Of a stretch of 64,000 nt of DNA, positions 11,453-38,466 are shown piece by piece. How positions within the stretch are numbered: position 1 is the first letter of the stretch; the number at the start of each line of letters is the position of its first letter. The DNA is taken from positions 1 to 64,000 of the forward strand of contig CAADHA010000115.1 in NCBI GenBank assembly GCA_900696685.1, in the 5' to 3' direction. Below the pieces are notes generated by a model. The model was given only the letters and a program-made list of their open reading frames with translations, had not been told where the DNA came from and made no database searches. This DNA is from an uncultured Planctomycetota bacterium (GTDB lineage: Bacteria > Planctomycetota > Phycisphaerae > Phycisphaerales > UBA5793). The translations under genes were made by a program, and so were the position numbers.

Positions 11453-13504
<2,052 letters not shown>

Positions 13505-13562
13505 ACGAAGCGCCGCAGCGACCCCATCGCGCCGGGTGCATGCGGCGCCCGATTCCCAACGC

Positions 13563-14096
13563 ATGAAACTCGCCGTCGTCAGTTGCAGTCTCGATCCCGA
13601 CAGTCGCAGCCGCGTTCTCGCGCGGCGGGCGCACGAGTTGCTCAAGGGCCGCGGCGCGGACTCGGACTGGATCGACCTGGCCGAGATTCCTCTGCCGTTG
13701 TGCGATGGCGGGGCGTGCTACAGCGATGCCAACGTGCGACTCGTGAGCGAGCGCCTTCGTGCGGCGCGCGGCATTCTCCTGGCCTCGCCCATCTACAACT
13801 TCGACGTGAGCAGCGCCGCCAAGAACCTCGTCGAACTCACGGGAAAGGCCGTCTGGACGGACACCGTCGTCGGGTTTCTGTGCGCCGCGGGCGGGCAGGG
13901 CAGTTACATGTCCGTCATGGCCCTGGCCAACAGCCTCATGCTCGACTTCCGTACGGTCATCGTTCCCCGCTTCGTCTACGCCACGAGCCGCGACTTCGAG
14001 GGCGACGAGATCGTCAGCGAAGCCGTCCGCGATCGCATTGAGCAGTTGTCCGGCGATCTGATCCGTTTCACAACCGGGCTGTTCGGCCAGACCTGA
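13563..14096 (+). CDS. NADPH-dependent FMN reductase family protein
   Basis: Flavodoxin-fold oxidoreductase of 177 aa that binds FMN and reduces flavin or small substrates with NAD(P)H. I start at the ATG at 13563 because MKLAVVSCSLDPDSRSR is the family N-terminus, with the phosphate-binding loop between strand 1 and helix 1. The second loop, LLASPIYNFDVSSAAKNLVE, is the family signature that contacts the isoalloxazine ring. Length matches the family (170-200 aa). It lies 58 bases after ftsH on the same strand and could be in its transcript. The substrate is unknown. Confidence 0.85.
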   Translation: MKLAVVSCSLDPDSRSRVLARRAHELLKGRGADSDWIDLAEIPLPLCDGGACYSDANVRLVSERLRAARGILLASPIYNFDVSSAAKNLVELTGKAVWTDTVVGFLCAAGGQGSYMSVMALANSLMLDFRTVIVPRFVYATSRDFEGDEIVSEAVRDRIEQLSGDLIRFTTGLFGQT

Positions 14097-14276
14097 CGCC
14101 GCGCAGGCGCGCATCGGCCGGCGATCAATCTGCGCTTTTCTCCGGTGGGTTCTCTGGCGGGAAATCGGTGGGGCCGCCCCATCAGCGTGCGCCGGTAATC
14201 GCGCGCCGTCGCTTTGCCTCCTCTCGGTGCAATGGCTCGCTCTCATGCGGGTCTGACGCATCACGAGGAGCATCGC

Positions 14277-15764
14277 GTGTCCTACGAACTTGCCCCATTC
14301 GCCGACGTCAGCCTCACGGAACCTCTTCTGCGGCTGCTGATCGAAGAGCACGAGGAACGGACGCTTCCCGCGTGCGAGCGCCTGCTGGCCTACTACCGCA
14401 ATGACGAGGAGCCGACCCCGGGCGCCGGCGGCGCAGTGATCTGGCGCGCGGCACAGATCGCCGGCCTGCCAGACCGCCTCACGCGCCCCATCGAGGGAGC
14501 GCCGCGCAAGGAGATCGTCATCGAGAACGACATCGGCTGGCGCGTCCAGTCGGTCGTCGATTACGTCGCCGGACGCGACGTCGCCTTTGTCTCCCGCGCC
14601 CGCGAGGCGCAGACAGCGCGGACGATCGGCGAGGTCGTCGAAGCGCTCTTCGAGGCGAACGGTTCGACGGGCCTCATCCAGGAGGCGGTCCTTCTCGGCG
14701 CGATCTACGGGCACGTTGATCTTCTGCTGCGCCTCGATCAGGCGCCGCGGCGCGAGGCGAAGACGCAGGCGGGTCTGGAGGAACTCCTCAACATCGTGCG
14801 ATCGATGCGGATCGAAGTGGTCGAGCGCCCGCGTGCCTTTGCGCTTCTGAATCCTTCGGACTACCGCCGCGTTGACGCTTACATCATTCGCCATGAGCGG
14901 TGGCTCAACGACGTGGAGAGCGGCGGGTTTCTCTCGCGCGTCGGGTCGTGGCTCAGCCGCAACCGCGTCCAAGCGCCGCCCCGCCGCGCCACGGCGAGCG
15001 TCACCGAGATCATCTCCGCCGCGCACCGCCAGGTGTACGAAGATGAGCAACTCGTGCTCGACGAGCCGAACAACCTGGGCTTCGTGCCCGTGGCGCACGT
15101 GCAGCACCAGCGGCGGCCGTTCGAGTATTCCGGCCTCGGCGAGGTCGAGCCGCTCATCCCCCTCCAGGACGAACTCAACACGCGCCTGAGCGACCGGGCC
15201 AACCGCGTCACGCTCCAGAGTTTCAAGATGTACCTCGGCAAGGGCATCGAGGGCTTCGGCGAGCGCCCCGTCGGGCCGGGGCAGATGTGGATCACTGAGA
15301 ATGCCGAGGCGTCGATCGACACCTTCGGCGGCGACGCGGAAAGCCCGAGCGAGGAAAGCCACATCCGCGAAGTGCGCGAAGCGATCGACAAGATTTCCGC
15401 CGTGACGCCCCTCGCCGCCGGACTGATCCGCGCCAAGGTCGGCACGCTTTCGAGCGAGAACGCGATGCGCATCTCGCTGCTGGGGATTCTGAGCAAGACG
15501 CTGCGCCTGCGGCAACTCTACGGGCGCGGCCTGAGCGACGTGTGCTCCATGGCGCTTGCGGCGCTCGACCAGGCGGGCTGGCTGCGCACGGAGCCTTGCG
15601 ACCGCTGCGTCGAGCCGCTCTGGGCGCCGCCGATTCCGCAGGATGAGTCGCGCGTCCTCGCCGATGCGCTTGTGAAGCGCGACTTGGGGGTTCCGTCGGA
15701 AGTGATTCTCGCGGAACTCGGCTACGGCGACCGGCCGCGGGCGCGCCCGCAGGCGGGACGGTAG
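14277..15764 (+). CDS. Phage portal-like protein
   Basis: Probable portal subunit, the dodecameric ring through which DNA enters a phage head. The chosen GTG at 14277 has an AGGAG eight bases upstream; it gives 495 aa, within the usual 450-550 aa range. Supporting features are the N-terminal half with WRVQSVVDYVAGRDVAF, the central AVLLGAIYGHVDLLL, and the helical C-terminal crown with PLIPLQDELNTRLSDRANRV and SAVTPLAAGLIRAKVGTLS, which resemble SPP1 gp6-type portals. Position directly before scaffold-like and capsid genes strengthens the call. No terminase lies next to it, which is unusual; a terminase operon begins near 36.5 kb. Confidence 0.75.
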   Translation: MSYELAPFADVSLTEPLLRLLIEEHEERTLPACERLLAYYRNDEEPTPGAGGAVIWRAAQIAGLPDRLTRPIEGAPRKEIVIENDIGWRVQSVVDYVAGRDVAFVSRAREAQTARTIGEVVEALFEANGSTGLIQEAVLLGAIYGHVDLLLRLDQAPRREAKTQAGLEELLNIVRSMRIEVVERPRAFALLNPSDYRRVDAYIIRHERWLNDVESGGFLSRVGSWLSRNRVQAPPRRATASVTEIISAAHRQVYEDEQLVLDEPNNLGFVPVAHVQHQRRPFEYSGLGEVEPLIPLQDELNTRLSDRANRVTLQSFKMYLGKGIEGFGERPVGPGQMWITENAEASIDTFGGDAESPSEESHIREVREAIDKISAVTPLAAGLIRAKVGTLSSENAMRISLLGILSKTLRLRQLYGRGLSDVCSMALAALDQAGWLRTEPCDRCVEPLWAPPIPQDESRVLADALVKRDLGVPSEVILAELGYGDRPRARPQAGR

Positions 15765-15802
15765 CAGCACCTCAACATCACCCTTGCATTGGAGTCAGAG
15801 CA

Positions 15803-16375
15803 ATGAACGAAACCACGGAACAGATCGAAGTCGAGCCGGTTGGCGCCGCGGATGGAACGCCCGCTGATTCGGAGGCATCATCGAAGGAGAGCCAAGCAGC
15901 CCCCGAGCAGGCCGCTCGACTCGTCAGCGTCAGCGAAGCCATCCGGTATCGCAAGCGGGCGCAGGCGGCGGAGCGCGAACTGGCGGAGACGAAAGAGCGC
16001 CTCGACGAGGCGACGCGGCAAGCGCAGACCGCGCAGCAGCGGCTGGCGCAGTCAGATCGCCGCGCCGCGATCGATCGCGGCCTGATCGAGTCGGGCGCGG
16101 CGGACCTCGAAGCGGCGCGTCTGCTCGTCGAGGCGGCATTGAACGAAGGCGAGGCCGACGTCGCCGGCGCGATTGAAGGCGTGCGGCGGCAGCGGCCGCA
16201 GATGTTCCGCACAATCAGTCAGGGTCTCAATCGCACCGCGGCGATGGGGCCGGCCGTGCGCCACGCGCCTGAGAGCGTGCGCGACCTCGATCGCGCCGCC
16301 CGTGCCGCCCGGCGCAGCGGGCACAACGCGGATGTCATGCACTACATGAACCTTCGGCGCAGCGCGCCGCGATGA
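15803..16375 (+). CDS. Phage scaffold-like coiled-coil protein
   Basis: Acidic-then-basic protein of 190 aa with the layout of a phage scaffolding protein: a disordered Glu/Ala/Ser-rich N-terminus, a long coiled coil over about residues 45-95 (RYRKRAQAAERELAETKERL and the following Gln/Ala-rich heptads), and a basic C-terminus (RAARAARRSGHNADVMHY). Scaffolds lie between portal and major capsid genes in many tailed phages, which is exactly this position. Sequence similarity cannot be judged here because scaffolds diverge quickly, so the role rests on architecture and neighbours. Confidence 0.6.
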   Translation: MNETTEQIEVEPVGAADGTPADSEASSKESQAAPEQAARLVSVSEAIRYRKRAQAAERELAETKERLDEATRQAQTAQQRLAQSDRRAAIDRGLIESGAADLEAARLLVEAALNEGEADVAGAIEGVRRQRPQMFRTISQGLNRTAAMGPAVRHAPESVRDLDRAARAARRSGHNADVMHYMNLRRSAPR

Positions 16376-16404
16376 GGCGGCGCCGTGCGCCGCGATGAGG
16401 CGGC
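16364..16404. repeat. Short direct repeat across the scaffold stop codon
   Basis: An 18-base unit (GCGCCGCGATGAGGCGGC) occurs at 16364-16381 and again at 16387-16404, a 23-base period. The first copy contains the TGA stop of the scaffold-like gene, so it looks like a local duplication of the gene end. Confidence 0.7.
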
Positions 16405-16513
16405 CAGGCGAAGACGCAAGCGTCTCCCGCACTCGCAACGCCTCTTGGGTCAGTGACCCTCGACCACGTCACACGCATTGCTCAGCAACACCACGCACTG
16501 AAAGGACCACACC

Positions 16514-17689
16514 ATGTCGTTCACAGGAAAGGCAACCTACTCGGCGGGCGCGACGCTGCCGGAGATCGTCGAAGACGTCTCCGACATCATCGGGATCGTC
16601 AGCCCCTTCGAGACCCCGCTGCTCGATCACCTCGGCGATCCCGCGCGGCCCGCCATCAGCACCATCCACGAGTGGCTCGAAGACACGCTTCTTCCCAACC
16701 GCGGTCAGATCAACGACGCGACCTACGTCAACGCGCTGACCGACACGAACTTCGTCGTGGACGACGCCTCGATCTTCCGAATCGGCGACCAGATTCAGGT
16801 CGCGGGCAGCCGCGAGGTCATGCTCGTGACCAACGTCAACACCGGAACGAACACGCTGACGGTCATCCGCGGGTACGGCGGCACGACCAACGAACCGCTC
16901 GCCGACGACCAGGTGCTGCACATCCTCGGCAACGCGGCGCTCGAAGGGGCCGACCGGCCCGCCAGCCGCTTCACCAATCGCACGCGGCAGCGCAACTACA
17001 CGCAGATTTTCACCTCAAGCGTCGAGGTCTCCGGATCGCAGCAGGCGGTGCGCCTGCACGCCCTGCGCGATGAACTCGACTACCAGAAGCAGCAGCGGCT
17101 GCGCGAACTGGTCCGCGACCTGGAGAACTGCGTGATCACCGGGACGGCGCCGGCCGCCGATGGCGAAGGCTCGGGCACCGTGCGCCGCACGATGGACGGC
17201 CTCATCCGCCGCATCGGGACCAACATCTTCGAGCCGGGCGTCGGGCCCATCCCGCCGGGCGAAGGGACGAACGAAGATCTGCTCACGGAAGAGATTCTCA
17301 ACGCCGCGCTGCGCACCGCGTGGGAGGCCAGTTCGGGCACCATCGACACCATCGTCGTCAACGGCTTCCAGAAGCGGCGCATCAACTCGATGCTCTTCCC
17401 GAACCGGCAGTACACCAGCGAAGAAGACCGTCTGCGCGAGTTCGTCGCGGTCTATGAGTCGGACTTCGGCGTATGCCGCGTCGTGCTCAGCCGCTGGGTG
17501 CCGGCCGACACGGTGCTTCTGCTTGATCGCTCGCGCCTCAGCGTCATGCCGCTGGCCGGGCGCAGTTTCCACTACAAGCCGCTGAGCAGCACCGGCGACT
17601 CCGAAGTCGGCGAGATCATCGGCGAGTACACGCTGGAGATGCGCAACGAGAACGCGCACGCGCTCATCCGCGCCCTCGGCACGTCGTAA
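16514..17689 (+). CDS. Major capsid protein, SU10/DUF5309 type
   Basis: Main head shell protein, 391 aa. It follows the DUF5309 (phage SU10-like major capsid) pattern: N-terminal SAGATLPEIVEDVSDIIGIV, then PFETPLLDHLGDP with a beta-strand-rich insert (residues about 75-140, VMLVTNVNTGTNTLTVIRGY), and the HK97-fold core containing RTRQRNYTQIF, ELVRDLENCVITG and IDTIVVNGFQKRRI. The C-terminal GEYTLEMRNENAHALIR is characteristic of the family. The protein is complete and in frame, so the head module has not decayed. It follows the scaffold-like gene by 138 bases. Confidence 0.85.
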   Translation: MSFTGKATYSAGATLPEIVEDVSDIIGIVSPFETPLLDHLGDPARPAISTIHEWLEDTLLPNRGQINDATYVNALTDTNFVVDDASIFRIGDQIQVAGSREVMLVTNVNTGTNTLTVIRGYGGTTNEPLADDQVLHILGNAALEGADRPASRFTNRTRQRNYTQIFTSSVEVSGSQQAVRLHALRDELDYQKQQRLRELVRDLENCVITGTAPAADGEGSGTVRRTMDGLIRRIGTNIFEPGVGPIPPGEGTNEDLLTEEILNAALRTAWEASSGTIDTIVVNGFQKRRINSMLFPNRQYTSEEDRLREFVAVYESDFGVCRVVLSRWVPADTVLLLDRSRLSVMPLAGRSFHYKPLSSTGDSEVGEIIGEYTLEMRNENAHALIRALGTS

Positions 17690-17773
17690 CTCATCTCTCC
17701 TCCGCTCCCGGTCGCGGGCCTGACCGCCCGCGGCCGGTTTTTACGACTGTCACTCAACATCGAGAGGTCGACC

Positions 17774-18421
17774 ATGCCCTTCGCCAACGATCGTCGGCTG
17801 CTGGTGCTCGAACCCAACCTCTTCCGCGACGTGGAGTTCGCCTCGGCGCTGATTGCGAGCGGGACGGACGGCGTACTCAGCGGCACGTCCTTCACGTCCG
17901 CGTCGGCGGACTTTGAGGCGGCGGGCGTCGATGCCGGGCACGTCATCTCCCTCAGCAGCCGGGCCGTCGAAGTCATCCAGCGCGTTTCGGCCACGGAACT
18001 GATCGTCTCGCTGCTGCGCGCGCGAGTTGAGGACGATCCGCTGCCTCCGCCCGACGGTGTGGCAATTGTTTACACGGTCCGGTCCTTCTCGCCGCAGATC
18101 GAAACGGTGCACAGGCAGGTGATGCGCATGGCGGGCATCGAGCCGGACGCCGCGGATGCGGCCGAGGGCGAGGCGACGGTCGAGGCCGTGCTCAACGCCG
18201 ACGAGATGGGCCTGGTCGAGGCGCTGGGCTCGCTGGAGATGATCTTCGCCGCGGCCGCTTCAATCCTCGCCGATGAGCCGTACCTGCGTCTGCGTGCGGC
18301 ATCCTACCGCGAGCGCTTCGCCTCGGCGCGGCAGAGGGTGCGCGTTCGACTTGACCTCGACGGCGACGGGGTCTCCGACGTGATGCGCTCCCTGAGCGCC
18401 GTGCAGTTCGTGCGGTGGTAG
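17774..18421 (+). CDS. Hypothetical head-module protein, 215 aa
   Basis: Unrecognised protein between the capsid gene and the holin-like gene. The N-terminal half is beta-rich (LLVLEPNLFRDVEFAS, VISLSSRAVEVIQRV). The C-terminal half is helical and ends with an EF-hand-like calcium loop, DLDGDGVSD, at about residues 197-205. By position it could be a head-tail connector or adaptor, but the N-terminus is not a typical connector and I have no sequence evidence for that. Length, start codon and coding bias all look genuine. Confidence 0.55.
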   Translation: MPFANDRRLLVLEPNLFRDVEFASALIASGTDGVLSGTSFTSASADFEAAGVDAGHVISLSSRAVEVIQRVSATELIVSLLRARVEDDPLPPPDGVAIVYTVRSFSPQIETVHRQVMRMAGIEPDAADAAEGEATVEAVLNADEMGLVEALGSLEMIFAAAASILADEPYLRLRAASYRERFASARQRVRVRLDLDGDGVSDVMRSLSAVQFVRW

Positions 18422-18508
18422 CAAGGCGTCGCCAGGGAATCGATGAGACGATTGTTCGGCGCCATGCAAGACCGCTTGCGCCTTCGCATCGGCTGAGGAG
18501 GTTGGCGC

Positions 18509-18823
18509 GTGGAAGAGTCGATCCTCCAGCATCTGGCGCAGTTCGGCGTGGCCGGCCTCATGGGAATTCTGTGGGTGATCGAGAGGCGGCACTCCAACCA
18601 GCGCGAGCGCGAGTTGAGCGAAGCCCATCAACGCCTCATGGAGCAACGGACGGAACTTGGCGAACTCATCGGAGTCGTGCGGGACAACACGGCCGCAATG
18701 ACCGCGCTCCAGGAAGGCCAGGCGCGGGTGGCGCGGGCGTTCGAGCAGGTGACGGCCGAGTTGCGGCGCTCGCGGCAGGGGGGCGGAAGCGCCTCCCGCC
18801 GGCCGATGGATCAGGCGGGCTGA
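18509..18823 (+). CDS. Small membrane coiled-coil protein, holin-like
   Basis: Protein of 104 aa starting at a GTG preceded by a strong GAGGAGGT ribosome-binding site (18494-18502). One N-terminal membrane helix (AQFGVAGLMGILWVIE, about residues 9-24) is followed by a charged coiled coil (RELSEAHQRLMEQRTELGEL and onwards) and a basic tail. This is the layout of BhlA-like holins and of many small phage membrane proteins. A role in lysis or in membrane-linked particle assembly would fit the location, but a single helix and a coil are weak evidence. Confidence 0.5.
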   Translation: MEESILQHLAQFGVAGLMGILWVIERRHSNQRERELSEAHQRLMEQRTELGELIGVVRDNTAAMTALQEGQARVARAFEQVTAELRRSRQGGGSASRRPMDQAG

Positions 18824-18886
18824 CCACCACTATCGTCAGAGGTGCTGAGATTGTCCGGGCAGGCTTTCGCCGATGAGTGACGAAGC

Positions 18887-19495
18887 ATGATGAGGCCATT
18901 CTGCGGAGCCATCGTGGTGGCGACGTGTCTGCTCCTGCTTGCCGGCGCGGGCTGCGAGGGGCCGGGCCGGGCGGCGGCCGGGCGCAATGGCGCCGTGCTC
19001 AATCCGGTCAGCGGGCCGGATGGTGAGCAAGCCCGCGGTCCAGCCGGTGCGACCAGCGATGTTCCGCCCTCCGGGCGCGGCCCGGCGGCATCGCCCGCCG
19101 AAGCAAGGGCGGCTGCCTGGCCGTTCCGGCCTGCATCGCTGCGCATCCACCCCCTCAGCCGCGCCGTGATCCTCGAGGGGTCGGCGACGGCCATCGAGGC
19201 GCGCGTCGAGTTCTTCGATCGTTTCGGACACACGACCAAGGGCGTGGGGATGATGAGGCTCGAACTGCACGCGGCCGACGCGCCGCCAGGCGGCGGGCGG
19301 CGCCTCGGAGCCTGGGAGATTGACCTGAGCGACGTCGATACGAACCTGCGCCACTATGACGATGTGACGCGAACCTATCTCTTCCGACTGGGCCTGGAGG
19401 GCCTGGGCGACCTGCCGGCGACGGCGCGCCTCAGCGCCACGGCCGTGATGCCCAATCAGCGCCTCAGCGCTTCGCTGACTGTCGCACTGCGGTGA
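18887..19495 (+). CDS. Hypothetical lipoprotein
   Basis: Predicted lipoprotein of 202 aa. The N-terminus is a lipoprotein signal (IVVATCLLLLAGAGC) with Cys at about residue 23, followed by a disordered Gly/Pro/Ala-rich linker to residue 75 and a compact beta-rich domain (LRIHPLSRAVILEGSATAIE, VEFFDRFGHTTKGVGMMRL). I do not recognise the domain. It sits 63 bases behind the holin-like gene but reads like a host envelope protein, so the end of the phage-like module is probably here or just before. Confidence 0.6.
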   Translation: MMRPFCGAIVVATCLLLLAGAGCEGPGRAAAGRNGAVLNPVSGPDGEQARGPAGATSDVPPSGRGPAASPAEARAAAWPFRPASLRIHPLSRAVILEGSATAIEARVEFFDRFGHTTKGVGMMRLELHAADAPPGGGRRLGAWEIDLSDVDTNLRHYDDVTRTYLFRLGLEGLGDLPATARLSATAVMPNQRLSASLTVALR

Positions 19496-32887: not shown

Positions 32888-33685
32888 TCACCTCCCCACA
32901 CGCCGCATTACGTACACCGCCGCGTACAGACCCGCCACCTGTTCGCGATCGACGACGCGCGCCTGGTAGCGCTCGTTGAGCGGCTGCAATCGGATCATCC
33001 GCCCATCCTCACCTTCGAAAAACACTCGCTTGAAGGTCGTCTCGTGATCGGGTTCGAGTCGCACGAAGCAGTCGCAGCCGTCGGGCGTGGCGGCGGCGGG
33101 TGAGAAGACGACGATGTCCCCCTCGCGGTACTGCGGCTCCATCGAGTCGCCGATGACGCGCGCAGCGAAGGCGTCGGCGTCGCCGAGGTCGGGGCAGTCG
33201 AGGTATTCATCCGCGACGGCTGCAGGGTAGTCGAGGTCGGTGAACTCGCGCGGCAGGCCGGCCGCCACGTCGTTGATCACCGGCACGCGCAGGCGCAGCG
33301 GCTGCGGCTCATCGTGATTTCGCGTGTGGTCCTCGATGAAGCGGTGGAGCATGCCCGACTTGAGCAGGGCGTCGAGGTCCGGGCCGTGCTCGATGAGGCA
33401 TCGGGCAACGGCCGCGGCGCGCTCCTCGCGCTCCCGCATCGCGGCGAGTTCCTTCTGCACCACCCGCGGCGTCGCCTCCCAGCGTGCGGCATCGATCAGT
33501 TGTCCAGGCTCGATCGCCAGGGCCCGTTCAATCGCAGCCAGGAGCGGCTCGGCGGGGGCGGGGCGGGCGCCCGTCTCGATCATCGACAGATAGGCCCGTC
33601 CACAGCCGGCGCGCTCAGCCACCTGCCGGAGCGTCAGCCCCAGCGACCGCCTGCGCCTGCGGATCATCGCTCCGATGGAAGACAC
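32888..33685 (-). CDS. XRE-family repressor with S24 (LexA-like) domain
   Basis: Two-domain regulator of 265 aa, similar to phage CI and LexA-like repressors. The N-terminal helix-turn-helix is LTLRQVAERAGCGRAYLSMIE (about residues 17-37). A linker of about 90 helical residues leads to a C-terminal S24 peptidase fold with ARVIGDSMEPQYREGDIVVF, carrying the Ser of the Ser-Lys dyad in GDSMEP and the Lys in TTFKRVFFEG. That arrangement allows RecA-dependent self-cleavage in relatives. I choose the GTG at 33685 with GGAG seven bases upstream; the ATG at 33667 is also possible. It is divergent from the packaging operon starting at 33962, the classical position for its repressor. Confidence 0.82.
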   Translation of the reverse strand: MSSIGAMIRRRRRSLGLTLRQVAERAGCGRAYLSMIETGARPAPAEPLLAAIERALAIEPGQLIDAARWEATPRVVQKELAAMREREERAAAVARCLIEHGPDLDALLKSGMLHRFIEDHTRNHDEPQPLRLRVPVINDVAAGLPREFTDLDYPAAVADEYLDCPDLGDADAFAARVIGDSMEPQYREGDIVVFSPAAATPDGCDCFVRLEPDHETTFKRVFFEGEDGRMIRLQPLNERYQARVVDREQVAGLYAAVYVMRRVGR

Positions 33686-33707
33686 GCAAGGACTCCGCTC
33701 GATCAAC

Positions 33708-33850
33708 CTCACCACAGAGAGCACGGAGGGGAGGAGGAGTCAGAAGGCCAGGTCAAATCGGCGCTTCCGATCGGGATGATCGATCATAAGTCAATGTCAC
33801 ACAATGACTTATGACGGCAATCTGTCCCCTCTCTGTCCTCTGTGCTGAAT
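33708..33850. repeat. Inverted-repeat element upstream of the repressor
   Basis: Left end CTCACCACAGAGAGCACGG (33708-33726) and right end CTCTGTCCTCTGTGCTGAAT (33831-33850) are partial inverted copies. The element resembles the one inside the desulfurase gene at 23163-23303 in ends and length. The 31-base palindrome at 33784 lies in its centre. Confidence 0.65.
33784..33814. promoter_or_regulatory. 31-base palindrome, candidate operator
   Basis: Left arm TCATAAGTCAATGT, spacer CAC, right arm ACAATGACTTATGA. The arms match inversely at 13 of 14 positions. It lies between the divergent repressor gene and the packaging operon, where a dimeric repressor should bind. It may instead be the centre hairpin of the surrounding repeat element. 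Confidence 0.55.
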
Positions 33851-33961: not shown

Positions 33962-34450
33962 ATGTCAAGTGGAATCTTCCAGATTGCGGCTGCGGCGGGA
34001 TCGGACCTCGGAAGCGCGCGGCGGAAAGTGCTCGTCGATCGACGCGCAGAGAGGCGAACGGATGATGACTGGGTGCTCAACCGGGCGAGCCTGCTCTCTC
34101 CCGAGGATCGGGCCGTAGTCGAAGGCTTCTACGACAAGGGGATGTCGGCCGTGCAGCTGGCCAGGCTGATGGACGTCCACCCAGGCACGGTGCGGCGGCG
34201 CACGCGCGAACTGCTGCGCCATCTGCGAAGTCCGCTCTTCTCTTTCGTGCTTGCGCATCGATCGCAATGGAGCGAACCGCGGCAGGTCGTGGCCGAACTG
34301 CACATTCTCCAGCGACGCACGTTGCGCGACACCGCGCGGCGGGCGCACCTCACCATGCACGTGGTCCGCCGCGAGGTTGAGCACATCAGAGCGCGATTCG
34401 AGGCCATGGGATTTGAGCCGGAGCGCGGGCAGCGGAGTCAGGCGTCATGA
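33962..34450 (+). CDS. Helix-turn-helix protein opening the packaging operon
   Basis: Basic 162-aa protein with two helical DNA-binding segments. The first (about residues 44-85: LSPEDRAVVEGFYDKGMSAV, QLARLMDVHPGTVRRRTREL) resembles sigma-70 region 4 or a transposase-type helix-turn-helix. The second (RRTLRDTARRAHLTMHVVRR) is a weaker copy. It may activate the operon or act as a DNA-recognition subunit in packaging. The stop overlaps the ATPase start (ATGA). No clear ribosome-binding site precedes the ATG, which fits a leaderless message. Confidence 0.65.
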   Translation: MSSGIFQIAAAAGSDLGSARRKVLVDRRAERRTDDDWVLNRASLLSPEDRAVVEGFYDKGMSAVQLARLMDVHPGTVRRRTRELLRHLRSPLFSFVLAHRSQWSEPRQVVAELHILQRRTLRDTARRAHLTMHVVRREVEHIRARFEAMGFEPERGQRSQAS

Positions 34451-35142
34451 CCTGGCGCCGCAGCATCACCGTCGAGAGGGCCGTGCCCACGGCCGTCGAG
34501 CCGAGCGAGCGCGTGCTCGAAGTCGCGTCGATGTTCGGCCTGGGGGTTGACGAGTCGCGCACGCAGACCATCATCCCGCGCACGGAGATCGAACTGCGCG
34601 GCGGAGAGGTCATCTTCATCGCCGGCCCCAGCGGCAGCGGCAAGTCCACCATCCTGCGCTGCATCGCCGACCAGGTCCGCGGCTGTCTGCGCTTCGAGGA
34701 TGTTCTCCGCGGCGGCGACGACCGGCCGATCATCGAGCAGATCGGCTCGACCGTCGAGGAAGCGGCGATGATTCTCTCGCTCGCGGGCCTGGCGGATGCG
34801 TTCGTCATGCTCCGCCGACCCAGCGAACTAAGCGACGGGCAGCGCTACCGCCTGGGCCTGGCGCGCCTCATCGAGCGCGCCACGCACGCGGATGAACTCG
34901 CCGAGATCGTCATCCTGGCCGACGAGTTCGGCGCGACGCTGGATCGATTGACGGCGTCGGTCGCGGCGCGCAACGTGCGGCGGTGGGTCGATCGCCGTCC
35001 GCGCGTGTGCTTCATCGCCGCGACGACGCACGATGACCTGATCGAAGCGCTGGAGCCCGACGTTCTGATCTGCAAGCCCCTCGGAGGCGGGATCGAGATT
35101 CACCGCCGCTCGCGTCATCGCGATCCGGAGTGCCCCTCGTGA
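34447..35142 (+). CDS. ABC-type ATPase (COG2401-like), soluble
   Basis: Soluble ABC ATPase of 231 aa without a membrane domain. Walker A GPSGSGKST is near residue 60, the ABC signature is LSDGQRYRLGLARLI near 128, Walker B VILADEFGATLD near 155, and the switch histidine is in TTHDD near 198. COG2401 proteins are ABC ATPases fused to an acetyltransferase domain; here the two parts are separate, adjacent genes. In other phage-like loci such pairs are next to ParB-like genes. Its partner is probably the GNAT protein downstream. It is not a transporter subunit on present evidence. Confidence 0.75.
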   Translation: MTWRRSITVERAVPTAVEPSERVLEVASMFGLGVDESRTQTIIPRTEIELRGGEVIFIAGPSGSGKSTILRCIADQVRGCLRFEDVLRGGDDRPIIEQIGSTVEEAAMILSLAGLADAFVMLRRPSELSDGQRYRLGLARLIERATHADELAEIVILADEFGATLDRLTASVAARNVRRWVDRRPRVCFIAATTHDDLIEALEPDVLICKPLGGGIEIHRRSRHRDPECPS

Positions 35143-35906
35143 GCGTGCTGCCCTGCGACGCCATGCTGCGCATCGAGGCGGGCAGTTGGCGCGATTACCG
35201 CGCCCTGGCCGAACATCACTATCGTTCAGGTTCGCCCTTCGCGCCCACGGCGATCTACGCGATGCGCCACGACGCCCTCGACGCCGCCGCCCGCTTCACC
35301 GGTGCGGCCGCGCGGCCGACGCTCGTCGGCGTGCTCGTCATGACGCGGCCTCAACTGGGCTGCACGTTGCGCGATCACGCGACGGGCGGGCGATACCGCG
35401 GGCTGAAGCGGTCCGAGGCTGCGGACCTGCTCAACGCCGAGGTGCGCGCCATCGCCCGCGTGGTGCTCGATCCGCGCTACCGCGGCCTGGGTCTGGCGGT
35501 GCGCCTGGTCAAGCACGCGCTGGCGCACGCCGACACGCCCTATGTCGAGGCGCTGGCGGCGATGGGGCGGGTCAATCCCTTCTTCGAGCGTGCGGGAATG
35601 GTGCGCTACGAGGCGCCGCCGCGTCTGGCCGACGCCCGGCTGCTCGACGCCTTGGCGGAAGAGAACTGGCCGCACACGCTCCTCGCCTGTCCGCGCCTCT
35701 TCGCGGCGCGACTGAGCGAGCTCGAACAGGTGCGCCGCGCGTGGATCGAAAGTGAATTGCGCCGCTGGCATCGCAGCGCCGCGTTCATGGCGCGCGGTGA
35801 AGCGGAGGGCGTGAGCCTCGATGAGGTGATTCGGCTCGCGCGCGACCGCCTCCTCTTGCGCTGCGTCTACTACCTCCACCACGATCCGCAGCGAGGTGCG
35901 TCATGA
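35139..35906 (+). CDS. GNAT-fold acyltransferase, partner of the ABC ATPase
   Basis: Protein of 255 aa with a GNAT fold. The CoA-binding segment is ARVVLDPRYRGLGLAVRLVK (R-G-x-G pattern near residue 120), and the C-terminal strand motif is VNPFFERAGMVRYEAPP. The GTG at 35139 overlaps the ATPase stop (GTGA) and has GGAG eight bases upstream, so I prefer it over the GTG at 35130. COG2401 joins this domain to the ATPase. Phage Mu Mom is also a GNAT-fold enzyme that modifies adenines in DNA, so a DNA substrate is possible but unproven. The C-terminal 90 residues are helical and basic. Confidence 0.7.
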   Translation: MSVLPCDAMLRIEAGSWRDYRALAEHHYRSGSPFAPTAIYAMRHDALDAAARFTGAAARPTLVGVLVMTRPQLGCTLRDHATGGRYRGLKRSEAADLLNAEVRAIARVVLDPRYRGLGLAVRLVKHALAHADTPYVEALAAMGRVNPFFERAGMVRYEAPPRLADARLLDALAEENWPHTLLACPRLFAARLSELEQVRRAWIESELRRWHRSAAFMARGEAEGVSLDEVIRLARDRLLLRCVYYLHHDPQRGAS

Positions 35907-36520
35907 TCGAGGTTCCGCTGATTCACCTGCGAAGCCGGGCCGACAACGCCAACGTCATGCCCGAGGCGCTGCTCGTCAAACTCGTCGGGCACATCGGGCG
36001 CACCGGCCGCTACCCGCACCTCATCGTGCGGCCGATGCCGGGCGAGACCGGTGCGTACGAAATTCTCGACGGGCATCACCGGGCCGAAGCGCTGCGGCGG
36101 CTCGGGCGCGAGGCGGCTTGCTGCGAAGTATGGAATGTTGACGATGATGAAGCGCTTGTGCTGCTGGCCACGCTCAATCGATTGCAGGGGCGGGACGAGG
36201 TGCGCCGGCGTGCCGGCCTGCTCGAAACCCTGCGGCAGCGCTATGGCGAGCAGCGCCTGCCGCAGTGGCTGCCCGAGGATGCTGCGCGACTCGATCGGCT
36301 GCGGCAGGTGCGCCTGGAGCCGCCGTCCCCGGCGCCCGCGATCGGCGCCAGCGATCTGCCCGCCGCCGTGACCTTCTTCCTCACGCCGGCGCAGAAGCGG
36401 CGGCTCGAAGATGTTCTCCGCGCCCATGCCGGCACGCGCTCGCAGCAGTTGATCGCCTGTCTGCAACTCAACGGCGAGCAAGCGCCTCCTTGCGATTCGA
36501 ACCCACGGAGCCGAACATGA
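35903..36520 (+). CDS. ParB-like nuclease-fold protein
   Basis: ParB N-terminal domain protein of 205 aa: IPLIHLRSRADNANV-like start (here VPLIHLRSRADNANV), a LVKLVGHIGRTGRYPHLIVRP strand-helix unit and the catalytic-type box YEILDGHHRAEALRRLG near residues 52-68, with GHHR where chromosomal ParB has GERR. ParB domains bind nucleotide (CTP) and in phage variants act on DNA. The C-terminal half is helical. Start and stop overlap neighbours by ATGA. There is no ParA gene next to it, so plasmid or chromosome partition is unlikely. Confidence 0.75.
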   Translation: MIEVPLIHLRSRADNANVMPEALLVKLVGHIGRTGRYPHLIVRPMPGETGAYEILDGHHRAEALRRLGREAACCEVWNVDDDEALVLLATLNRLQGRDEVRRRAGLLETLRQRYGEQRLPQWLPEDAARLDRLRQVRLEPPSPAPAIGASDLPAAVTFFLTPAQKRRLEDVLRAHAGTRSQQLIACLQLNGEQAPPCDSNPRSRT

Positions 36521-36999
36521 AGCAGTCCTCCATCCACTCGACGCGCAGCGAGCGCCTGATGCAGGCGCTCTACGAAGCACAGCAGGACCTCGATCAACTG
36601 GCCAGGCAGGAGAAACTGACGCTGACGCGGCTGGCGGGGTGGGCGAATCAGCCCGACACCATGGCTGCGCTCGACGGCCTGTGCCGGCTCAATGACGTGC
36701 GGGCGCAACTGCTCGTGAGCCGCTATCGCACGCTCGCCGCGGCGCGGCTCTTTGAACTGGCCAAGGACGAGGGCGCGGGCGAACTGGCGCGCAAGGCGTG
36801 CGTTGACCTGCTCAAGGTGTGCCTCATTCCGCTCACCGGCAGCGAAGGCGCCGGCGAGGCCTCGGGCGCTGCACCAAGCGTGGTTGATGAAAGCACCGTG
36901 CGGCGGCTGCTGGGCGAACTCGGGCGCGAAGCGGGCGAAGCGCCGGCTGCATCCGATTCGCGGGCAGAGGGCGACGCCCAGCCCTGCGGAGCGGATTGA
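36517..36999 (+). CDS. Small terminase-like protein
   Basis: Protein of 160 aa directly before the large terminase, with GGAG six bases upstream of its ATG. It is helical: a possible N-terminal DNA-binding helix pair (LDQLARQEKLTLTRLAGWA) and a central oligomerisation-type helix bundle (LLVSRYRTLAAARLFELAKD). Small terminase subunits are short, variable helical proteins that select DNA for packaging. Assignment is by position and size. It abuts the terminase start with no gap. Confidence 0.58.
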   Translation: MKQSSIHSTRSERLMQALYEAQQDLDQLARQEKLTLTRLAGWANQPDTMAALDGLCRLNDVRAQLLVSRYRTLAAARLFELAKDEGAGELARKACVDLLKVCLIPLTGSEGAGEASGAAPSVVDESTVRRLLGELGREAGEAPAASDSRAEGDAQPCGAD

Positions 37000-38466
37000 A
37001 TGATCGCCGTCGAGTCATCACCCACGGGCATGCAGGTGCGCCGCGCCCTGCGGCTGATCAGGCCGGCGACGGCGGATGAACTGCACGGCTATCTTCGGGC
37101 TGTGCTGGGCTTCGACGTGCCGCGCCGGGCGGTGGTCGAAGGGCACGACGCCCCGTTTGACTACCTCTGCCACGCTTTCTTCGAGACGGGACCGGAGCGC
37201 GATTGCGTCGTGTGGGCGAACCGCGGCGGGGGAAAGACGCGCTTCGGCGCCATCGCCACGCTCCTCGACCTGGTCTTCAAGCCCGGCATCCAGGTGCGCA
37301 TCCTCGGCGGTTCGCTCGAACAGTCCTCGCGCATGCATGCCTACCTGCGCGAGATGATCGAGAGCGAGGTCTTCTCCGACCTTCTCGACGGCAAGGCGAC
37401 GGGCAAGCACATTCAACTCAAGAGCGGCTCGCGCGTCGAGGTTCAGGCGCAGAGCGAGCAGTCGGTGCGCGGCCTGCGGGTGCAGAAACTCCGCTGCGAC
37501 GAGGTCGAGTTGTTCACCCCCGAAGTCTGGCAGGCGGCGCAGTTCGTCACGCGCTCGGCGCAGTGCGGCGACGTCTTCGTGCGCGGGTGCATCGAGGCGC
37601 TGAGCACGATGCACCGGCCGTTCGGCCTCATGCACCGCCTCGTGCGCGAGCGGGGCGGGCGGCGCCTCTTCCGCTGGGGATTGCTCGGGGTGATCGAGCG
37701 CTGCCCGCCAGCGCGGCCGTGCGAAGATTGCCGCCTGTGGGCCGATTGCGGCGGCATGGCGCGAACGACGCGCGGGTTCTTCCGCGTCGAGGATGCGCTC
37801 GTGCAGAAGGGGCGAACCGACGGCAACGCCTGGGCGGCCGAGATGCTCTGCCGCGAGCCCAGCCGCAGCAACTGCGTCTACACGCAGTTCGACGGGAAGG
37901 TTCACGTCGAGCCGTTCGTCGAGATGGACGAATCGCCCGGGTCGTGGGCGGCGGGGATGGACTTCGGCTTCCGCTCCCCGACCGTTGTGCTCTGGGCGCG
38001 CCTGCACGGCGACGGCTCCGCACACATCGTCGACGAGCACATCGCTTCGGAAATGACGATCCAGCAGCACATCGACACGATCCGCGCTCGGAGCGCGGGA
38101 AGGCGGCTTGAGTGGATCGGAATCGATCCCGCGGGCTTTCAGCGCCGCGAGCATCTCGGGACGAGTTCGGCGGCGCTGCTCATGCGCGCGGGATTCCGGA
38201 TTCGGGCGCGGTCGTGCGGCGTGCAGGCGGGCATTCTCGCGGTCTCGGCGCTCCTGCGCAGCGCTGACGGGCGCGTGCGCCTGCGCATCGATCCTCGCTG
38301 CGTGCGGCTCATCGAGTCCCTGCGCACCTACCACTATCCCGCGGAACAGAGGGAGAGTACCGAACCGGTGAAGGACGGGAGCGATCACGCCTGCGATGCG
38401 CTGCGCTACCTCGTGGTGAATCTCGACGGCGAGGGGCGGAAGGCGAAGGTGGTGAAGTATGCGTGA
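37000..38466 (+). CDS. Phage terminase large subunit
   Basis: DNA-packaging motor and nuclease, 488 aa. ATPase domain: Walker A-like VVWANRGGGKTRFGA (about residues 69-83), Walker B KLRCDEVELFT near 165. C-terminal RNase H-fold nuclease: first Asp in AAGMDFGFRSP near 313, later WIGIDPAGF near 372 and DHACDALRYLVV near 465. A cysteine cluster, CPPARPCEDCRLWADC, lies between the domains (about 234-249) and could bind a metal. All expected catalytic acidic residues are present, so the protein looks functional. No portal gene follows it; the only portal lies at 14.3 kb. Confidence 0.88.
   Translation: MIAVESSPTGMQVRRALRLIRPATADELHGYLRAVLGFDVPRRAVVEGHDAPFDYLCHAFFETGPERDCVVWANRGGGKTRFGAIATLLDLVFKPGIQVRILGGSLEQSSRMHAYLREMIESEVFSDLLDGKATGKHIQLKSGSRVEVQAQSEQSVRGLRVQKLRCDEVELFTPEVWQAAQFVTRSAQCGDVFVRGCIEALSTMHRPFGLMHRLVRERGGRRLFRWGLLGVIERCPPARPCEDCRLWADCGGMARTTRGFFRVEDALVQKGRTDGNAWAAEMLCREPSRSNCVYTQFDGKVHVEPFVEMDESPGSWAAGMDFGFRSPTVVLWARLHGDGSAHIVDEHIASEMTIQQHIDTIRARSAGRRLEWIGIDPAGFQRREHLGTSSAALLMRAGFRIRARSCGVQAGILAVSALLRSADGRVRLRIDPRCVRLIESLRTYHYPAEQRESTEPVKDGSDHACDALRYLVVNLDGEGRKAKVVKYA

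Follow-up and report, generated by a model that had tools for sequence, protein, structure and literature searches.

The stretch of DNA analysed here, hereafter the window (64,000 nucleotides; contig CAADHA010000115.1 of the uncultured Phycisphaerales assembly GCA_900696685.1), contains two groups of phage-related genes that probably belong to one gene transfer agent (GTA)-like element. The first is a cassette of six same-strand genes (33962-38466), which encode a helix-turn-helix (HTH) protein of 162 aa, an ABC ATPase (231 aa), a GNAT acyltransferase (255 aa), a ParB-like protein (205 aa), a terminase-small-subunit-like (TerS-like) protein (160 aa) and the terminase large subunit (TerL, 488 aa). 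The second is a head module (14277-19495) with portal, scaffold and capsid genes, located 18 kb upstream of the cassette (Table 1).

Four of the cassette junctions are 4-base overlaps (HTH/ABC, ATGA at 34447-34450; ABC/GNAT, GTGA at 35139-35142; GNAT/ParB, ATGA at 35903-35906; ParB-like/TerS-like, ATGA at 36517-36520), and the TerS-like and terminase genes meet with 0 bases between them (TGA followed by ATG, 36999/37000). An earlier, sequence-only reading of the window had counted five junctions from the HTH gene to the terminase; the junctions are as it described them, but the count requires a sixth gene before the terminase, the TerS-like one, which had gone unnamed. Tight spacing alone is weak evidence for a common unit, because 7 of 30 other same-strand neighbour pairs in the window are equally tight. 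Its conservation is strong evidence: 53 of 85 loci have a spacing of exactly -4 between the HTH and ABC genes, and 37 of 57 have it between ABC and GNAT. The gene order likewise recurs in all 21 genomic loci first fetched, one of them rearranged (G048) and some with the ParB-like and TerS-like genes lost or fused. The proposal that the terminase and the genes before it belong to one unit is upheld.

The ABC ATPase has the expected motifs (Walker A GPSGSGKST, signature LSDGQ, Walker B VILADEF) and no adjoining gene for a transmembrane partner. The ParB-like protein has a ParB/Srx fold without the G-E-R-R nucleotide-binding motif of ParB CTPases; the replacement by GHHR, already pointed out from the sequence, is confirmed as a D-G-H-H-R motif invariant in 15 homologues. 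The top structural matches of its model are ParB/Noc CTPases, followed by sulfiredoxin and free serine kinase. Terminase identity across host genomes is 45-79%, and in an alignment of 13 sequences the Walker A motif (R75-T80), the Walker B residues DE (167-168) and the RNase H acids D321, D376, D462 and D466 are invariant. The TerS-like protein (P0005) has neither a Pfam match nor a Pfam DNA-binding domain, and may yet have an N-terminal HTH; a TerS without a detectable DNA-binding domain is a described trait of GTAs (PMC11841831).

Table 1. Features of the cassette, its control region and the head module in the window
Feature	Position	Strand	Evidence
Divergent XRE-HTH + S24 peptidase repressor (CI/LexA-like)	32888..33724	-	Pfam Peptidase_S24 3.6e-16, HTH_31 1.3e-11
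Operator-like palindrome TTCAC-N6-GTGAA	33901..33930	+	directly 5' of TTGACA -35 box; single exact copy in draft genome
HTH protein, sigma-70 region-4-like domain, candidate activator	33962..34450	+	Sigma70_r4_2 2.6e-6; sigma70-ECF 5.4e-9 (under curated cut-off)
Soluble ABC ATPase	34447..35142	+	ABC_tran 3e-10; phrog_293 3e-26; 34% identity to phage ABC (hhalign, prob 100)
GNAT acyltransferase, GTG start, motif RYRGLGLA	35139..35906	+	Acetyltransf_1 1.2e-5; phrog_886 8e-14; model pLDDT 87
ParB/Srx-fold protein, invariant DGHHR	35903..36520	+	phrog_723 5e-9; model pLDDT 84; alignment
TerS-like gene	36517..36999	+	position and conservation
Terminase large subunit	37000..38466	+	phrog_2 4.5e-19; Terminase_6C 2.6e-8; alignment of 13
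Portal protein, SPP1 gp6 type	14277..15764	+	PF05133 3.8e-10; GTG 14277 after GAGGAG; longest open reading frame from 14214
Scaffold-like protein	15803..16375	+	Phage_scaffold 0.0011; conserved between portal and capsid genes in 20 loci
Major capsid protein, SU10 type	16514..17689	+	PF17236 1.8e-83; solved capsid relatives 9ny2, 9in6
h4, conserved head-completion/adaptor candidate	17774..18421	+	adjoins capsid gene in 17 loci; function inferred from position
Small membrane + coiled-coil protein, holin-like candidate	18509..18823	+	phrog_2429 3.6e-4, weak Rz-like spanin matches; position conserved
Lipoprotein at end of head module	18887..19495	+	position conserved

The sole neighbour of the cassette that is conserved across the order is the divergent XRE-S24 repressor, which adjoins it in at least 15 of the 21 fetched loci and in 50 of 57 further ones (the terminase loci with enough upstream sequence). 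The residues for self-cleavage (Ala-Gly bond, Ser, Lys) are conserved in 52-56 of 57 repressor homologues. All five copies of the strict TTCAC-N6-GTGAA palindrome in 878 kb of loci lie between the repressor and the HTH gene, and a GTTCA-N8-TGAAC dyad occurs in 10 of 55 loci against 0.12 expected. A shared operator 5' of the portal gene was sought and not found, the exact palindrome being unique in the window and its combination with TTGACA unique in the draft genome. An imperfect inverted repeat in the gap between repressor and cassette, ATAAGTCA...TGACTTAT (= ATAAGTCAATGT...ACAATGACTTAT; 33786-33812), was rejected as operator: only the window's genome has it in full, one relative (G003) retains a single arm, and elsewhere in the genus it is not intact.

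The SU10-type capsid gene was located after a search for SPP1-type portals had matched the window itself. The order portal-scaffold-capsid-h4 is kept in other genomes. The head module of the host families f4-f6 extends further, with genes t1-t6, of which t5 encodes a large candidate receptor-binding protein that has a weak laminin-G-like match; family f2 keeps t1 only. A conserved sensor/regulator-like gene of about 530 aa stands divergently upstream of the portal in f6 genomes (L074, L075, L076, L077, L078, L079, L083, L086) and is possibly a regulator of the head module. The window's own genome also holds HK97-type capsid and portal genes as a separate pair (G000:C10:8286-11958), probably an ordinary prophage.

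The distribution of the genes was surveyed in 101 genomes of the order Phycisphaerales, which represent 69 genera. As determined by a GNAT homologue search, the cassette is present as a single locus per genome in 61 genomes and 43 genera. The SPP1-type portal (PF05133; window included) and the SU10 capsid are each found in 60 genomes; 55 genomes have cassette, portal and capsid and 35 have none of them (Fisher p 1.6e-17 for cassette-portal, 1.6e-17 for cassette-capsid and 4e-23 for portal-capsid). The HK97 capsid (PF05065) shows no association with the cassette (p 0.58), and HK97 capsid and portal families, being sporadic and unassociated, were rejected as the partner module, as was the capsid family of the nickie phages, present in 2 of the 101 genomes only. 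In other orders of Phycisphaerae, all ten genomes with a strong terminase match also carry the SU10 capsid, and the terminase is encoded at 305 stretches of the sequenced-genome collection. One locus from another class (L206, G449) combines a distant terminase, an SU10-like capsid and an h4-like gene without ABC or GNAT, an arrangement that is possibly viral or ancestral.

Both modules lie on the chromosome in complete genomes, with host genes in between. They are 11-82 kb apart on a single contig in 27 of 31 measured genomes (median of the 31, 45 kb), and 8.5 kb apart at one locus (L207). The distance matrices of terminase and portal correlate with r 0.86, a value reached by none of 2000 permutations, and both trees group the host families f1 (that of the window) and f2. 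The cassette genes are under purifying selection: within the genus their dN/dS is 0.14-0.30, compared with 0.11-0.20 for portal and capsid and 0.10-0.15 for a host pyrophosphatase. Neither module contains a recognised integrase or replication gene. In free-virus collections the closest viral terminase reaches at most 41% identity, over part of the protein, and a search of viral contigs with the GNAT alone returned no relatives.

We interpret these patterns, with a probability of roughly three in four, as those of a dispersed GTA-like element, a tailed-phage derivative that would have been taken over by ancestors of the Phycisphaerae and inherited vertically since, with the six-gene cassette as its packaging-and-control module. 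It is most likely that the capsid and portal module 18 kb upstream is tied to the cassette as one such element. GTAs are defined by caudoviricete-derived proteins, an endogenised genome that is often split over several loci, and vertical inheritance with co-diversification with the host; further features are the packaging of mostly random host DNA, a head too small for the agent's own genome and delivery of the DNA to other cells (PMC9662315). Terminase, SPP1 portal, SU10 capsid and scaffold are caudoviricete-derived, and the two modules are fully endogenised at separate loci. Co-diversification is seen in the host-family grouping of the terminase and portal trees and in their correlated distances, the judgement being based on these two gene trees. 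We use the label GTA-like, and not that of a proven GTA, because of the six formal features three were tested, and those three were found. Co-packaging of both loci in one head is unlikely, because tens of kb separate them.

Few GTAs have been proven, most of them in Alphaproteobacteria, and no description of a GTA in Phycisphaerae was found in the literature searched. The described agents (RcGTA/CcGTA, BaGTA, BhGTA/VSH-1) share with the present element tailed-phage head and packaging genes that are fixed in chromosomes at several loci, vertical inheritance and purifying selection. They further share a sigma-like regulator: the C-terminus of GafA, the activator of RcGTA, is sigma-like (PMC6363796), and the HTH protein here has a sigma-70 region-4-like domain. 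By contrast, the present element belongs to another phylum, combines an SU10 capsid with an SPP1 portal, has ABC, GNAT and ParB-like genes in the terminase operon and a divergent S24 repressor, and its GTA function is a prediction. As far as tested, with the RcGTA-type HK97 capsid PF05065 being unassociated, the three described GTA families have no homology to it.

Several observations weigh against a GTA-like element. In the window's family (G000-G005), searches with two profiles, t1 and t5, found no tail or receptor-binding genes, which are either lost or of an unrecognised kind. The repressor is missing beside the cassette in G001 and G002. The GNAT and ABC trees fit the capsid tree less well (r 0.42-0.50), and the structural matches of the GNAT reach TM-scores near 0.4 only. 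G025 and G026 have the cassette but neither portal nor SU10 capsid, G025 retaining only a portal remnant; G057 and G069 likewise hold the cassette without a head module. In G014 a deletion extends from the capsid gene into t3 (L076 8094-8461), and in G003 the capsid gene has an in-frame TAG (L069 8219-9394). Some lineages are losing the element, or it is parasitised there. In three genomes the SU10 capsid gene is split at a single conserved position, following HEWLEDxL, by elements that begin with a large serine recombinase (L099 1302-12785 in G032, L100 2039-13492 in G096 and L111 ~13070-16452 in G017, where a neighbouring segment is inverted). The inserts in G032 and G096 are about 11.5 kb long and, read by eye, encode an apparent prohead-protease/capsid fusion, a helicase-like ATPase and a DNA methylase; they are possibly capsid-carrying satellites with the GTA capsid gene as attachment site.

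Decay of this kind (the G014 deletion, the G003 stop, the G025 remnant), together with the phage-like nature of the genes, would fit an ordinary or decaying prophage that had left a terminase cassette in the window by chance. We give this very little credence: the distribution is class-wide, single-copy and vertical instead of sporadic, the genes are under purifying selection, two loci devoid of recognised integrase and replication genes are separated by host genes, and close viral relatives are lacking. The four genomes that keep the cassette without head module could instead speak for an island of DNA modification or defence, with the terminase as a nuclease and the ABC-GNAT-ParB trio as a marker of self DNA; the resemblance of the GNAT fold to TmcA and Mom and the DNA modification predicted for ABC-GNAT pairs (PMC7824862) would fit. 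Such an island is nonetheless improbable, since the cassette co-occurs and co-evolves tightly with portal and capsid, and phages carry the same trio beside terminase, portal and capsid. We also have to consider that the capsid was domesticated for a role other than transfer, such as a killing particle, DNA disposal or a nanocompartment, especially where tail genes were not found (f1) or are reduced to t1 (f2). However, selection on a full terminase and portal argues for DNA packaging, and the f4-f6 relatives retain tail or receptor-binding candidates (t1-t6), which makes this explanation unlikely as well.

Within the GTA-like element, the ABC ATPase and the GNAT form the module's core and stand closest to the terminase, because both are kept where the ParB-like and TerS-like genes are lost, the GNAT gene then overlapping that of TerL by 4 bases in L042, and because they are fused in two genomes. 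The losses concern the f2 genomes (L041, L042, L044); the fusions form single open reading frames at L029 9347-11152 (G005, 601 aa) and L040 8827-10215 (G023, 462 aa). The sequence-only reading had contrasted the separate genes with COG2401, to which both domains in one chain are ascribed; this is correct for the two frames in the window but not for these relatives. Our literature search on COG2401 found nothing. The same reading had also suggested that the trio modifies, marks or protects packaged DNA before the terminase cuts. Its coupling to the terminase in one unit and the intact, conserved ABC and GNAT proteins stand, but the arrangement is not new and the capsid and portal module had been missed.

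ABC and GNAT as separate genes next to a terminase are known from several phages, and the arrangement is therefore not new. With tblastn, 53 phage records matched the ABC ATPase and 17 the GNAT. Nickie, RHEph10 and BUCTxx99 all show the order ParB-ParB-ABC-(x)-GNAT-(x)-DNA-binding protein-terminase-portal; for SSU5 the record stops shortly after the GNAT. Profile comparisons with the phage proteins give probabilities of 100 (ABC), 99.5 (GNAT), 99.5 (terminase) and 97.6 (ParB), and in these phages, as here, the homologous genes occupy one region, there 5' of portal and capsid. They differ in having two ParB-like genes before the ABC gene instead of one after the GNAT, in their TerS-like DNA-binding protein and in their capsid family (phrog_212), and they are large free phages, whereas the loci here are vertically inherited. 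What is new is that the cassette is not a prophage here: it occurs once per genome, evolves under purifying selection and is collinear throughout the order.

The nearest folds of the GNAT model in the PDB are TmcA/NAT10 (TM ~0.4), and in a library of viral proteins the top matches (TM ~0.4) include Mom and proteins annotated as 'Endonuclease-like'. The comparison with phage Mu Mom made in the earlier reading therefore holds for the fold, but no Mom family match was found for the GNAT in Pfam, PHROG or NCBIfam scans. Mom systems are not known to have an ABC ATPase partner. KacT/AtaT, RimI and SpeG folds are also matched, at similar scores, those of the toxin and polyamine GNATs being nearly equal. 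These resemblances would suit a GNAT that acylates protein (terminase, portal or host polymerase), with the ABC ATPase as an energy-dependent packaging clamp, and so would the retention of GNAT and ABC, with the TerL overlap, after loss of the other two genes. Against this, the best PDB match and the named Mom act on nucleic acids, and DNA was the target predicted earlier for the phage homologues: Iyer, Aravind and colleagues proposed, as a prediction only and with phages included, that ABC-GNAT pairs acylate a DNA base (PMC7824862 and its ref. 136). Their system likewise couples a GNAT to an ABC ATPase; here the pair resides in a host-fixed, GTA-like packaging operon and, apart from the fusions, in two genes. 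We tentatively favour DNA as substrate of the trio, at slightly below even odds, and regard a protein of the packaging machine as a plausible alternative of somewhat lower probability; the remainder falls to other targets.

A GTA-like element of this composition could work as follows. One operon would supply the HTH regulator, ABC ATPase, GNAT, ParB-like protein and terminase. It would be silenced by the S24-type repressor through the operator at its promoter, until RecA-stimulated self-cleavage of the repressor after DNA damage lifts the silencing. The second locus, 18 kb upstream, would provide portal, scaffold and capsid. Once induced, the terminase would fill small heads with cut host DNA by way of the portal, for release by the holin-like protein. 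At or before cutting, ABC and GNAT, aided by the ParB-like protein, would most likely acylate DNA bases or the packaging complex. In its boldest form, which we consider doubtful, the proposal is of a class-wide, DNA-damage-inducible planctomycete GTA that chemically marks the DNA it packages: the trio would acylate bases at the terminase, whereby the host DNA might survive restriction or be recognised in the recipient, and the capsid gene would be the attachment site of capsid-carrying satellites.

If the GTA-like interpretation is true, a class-wide system of this kind would represent a route of DNA exchange in abundant aquatic planctomycetes. The GTA-like setting would also make the function of the unexplained ABC-GNAT-ParB phage module accessible by deletion, because the host needs no lytic phage to keep the module.

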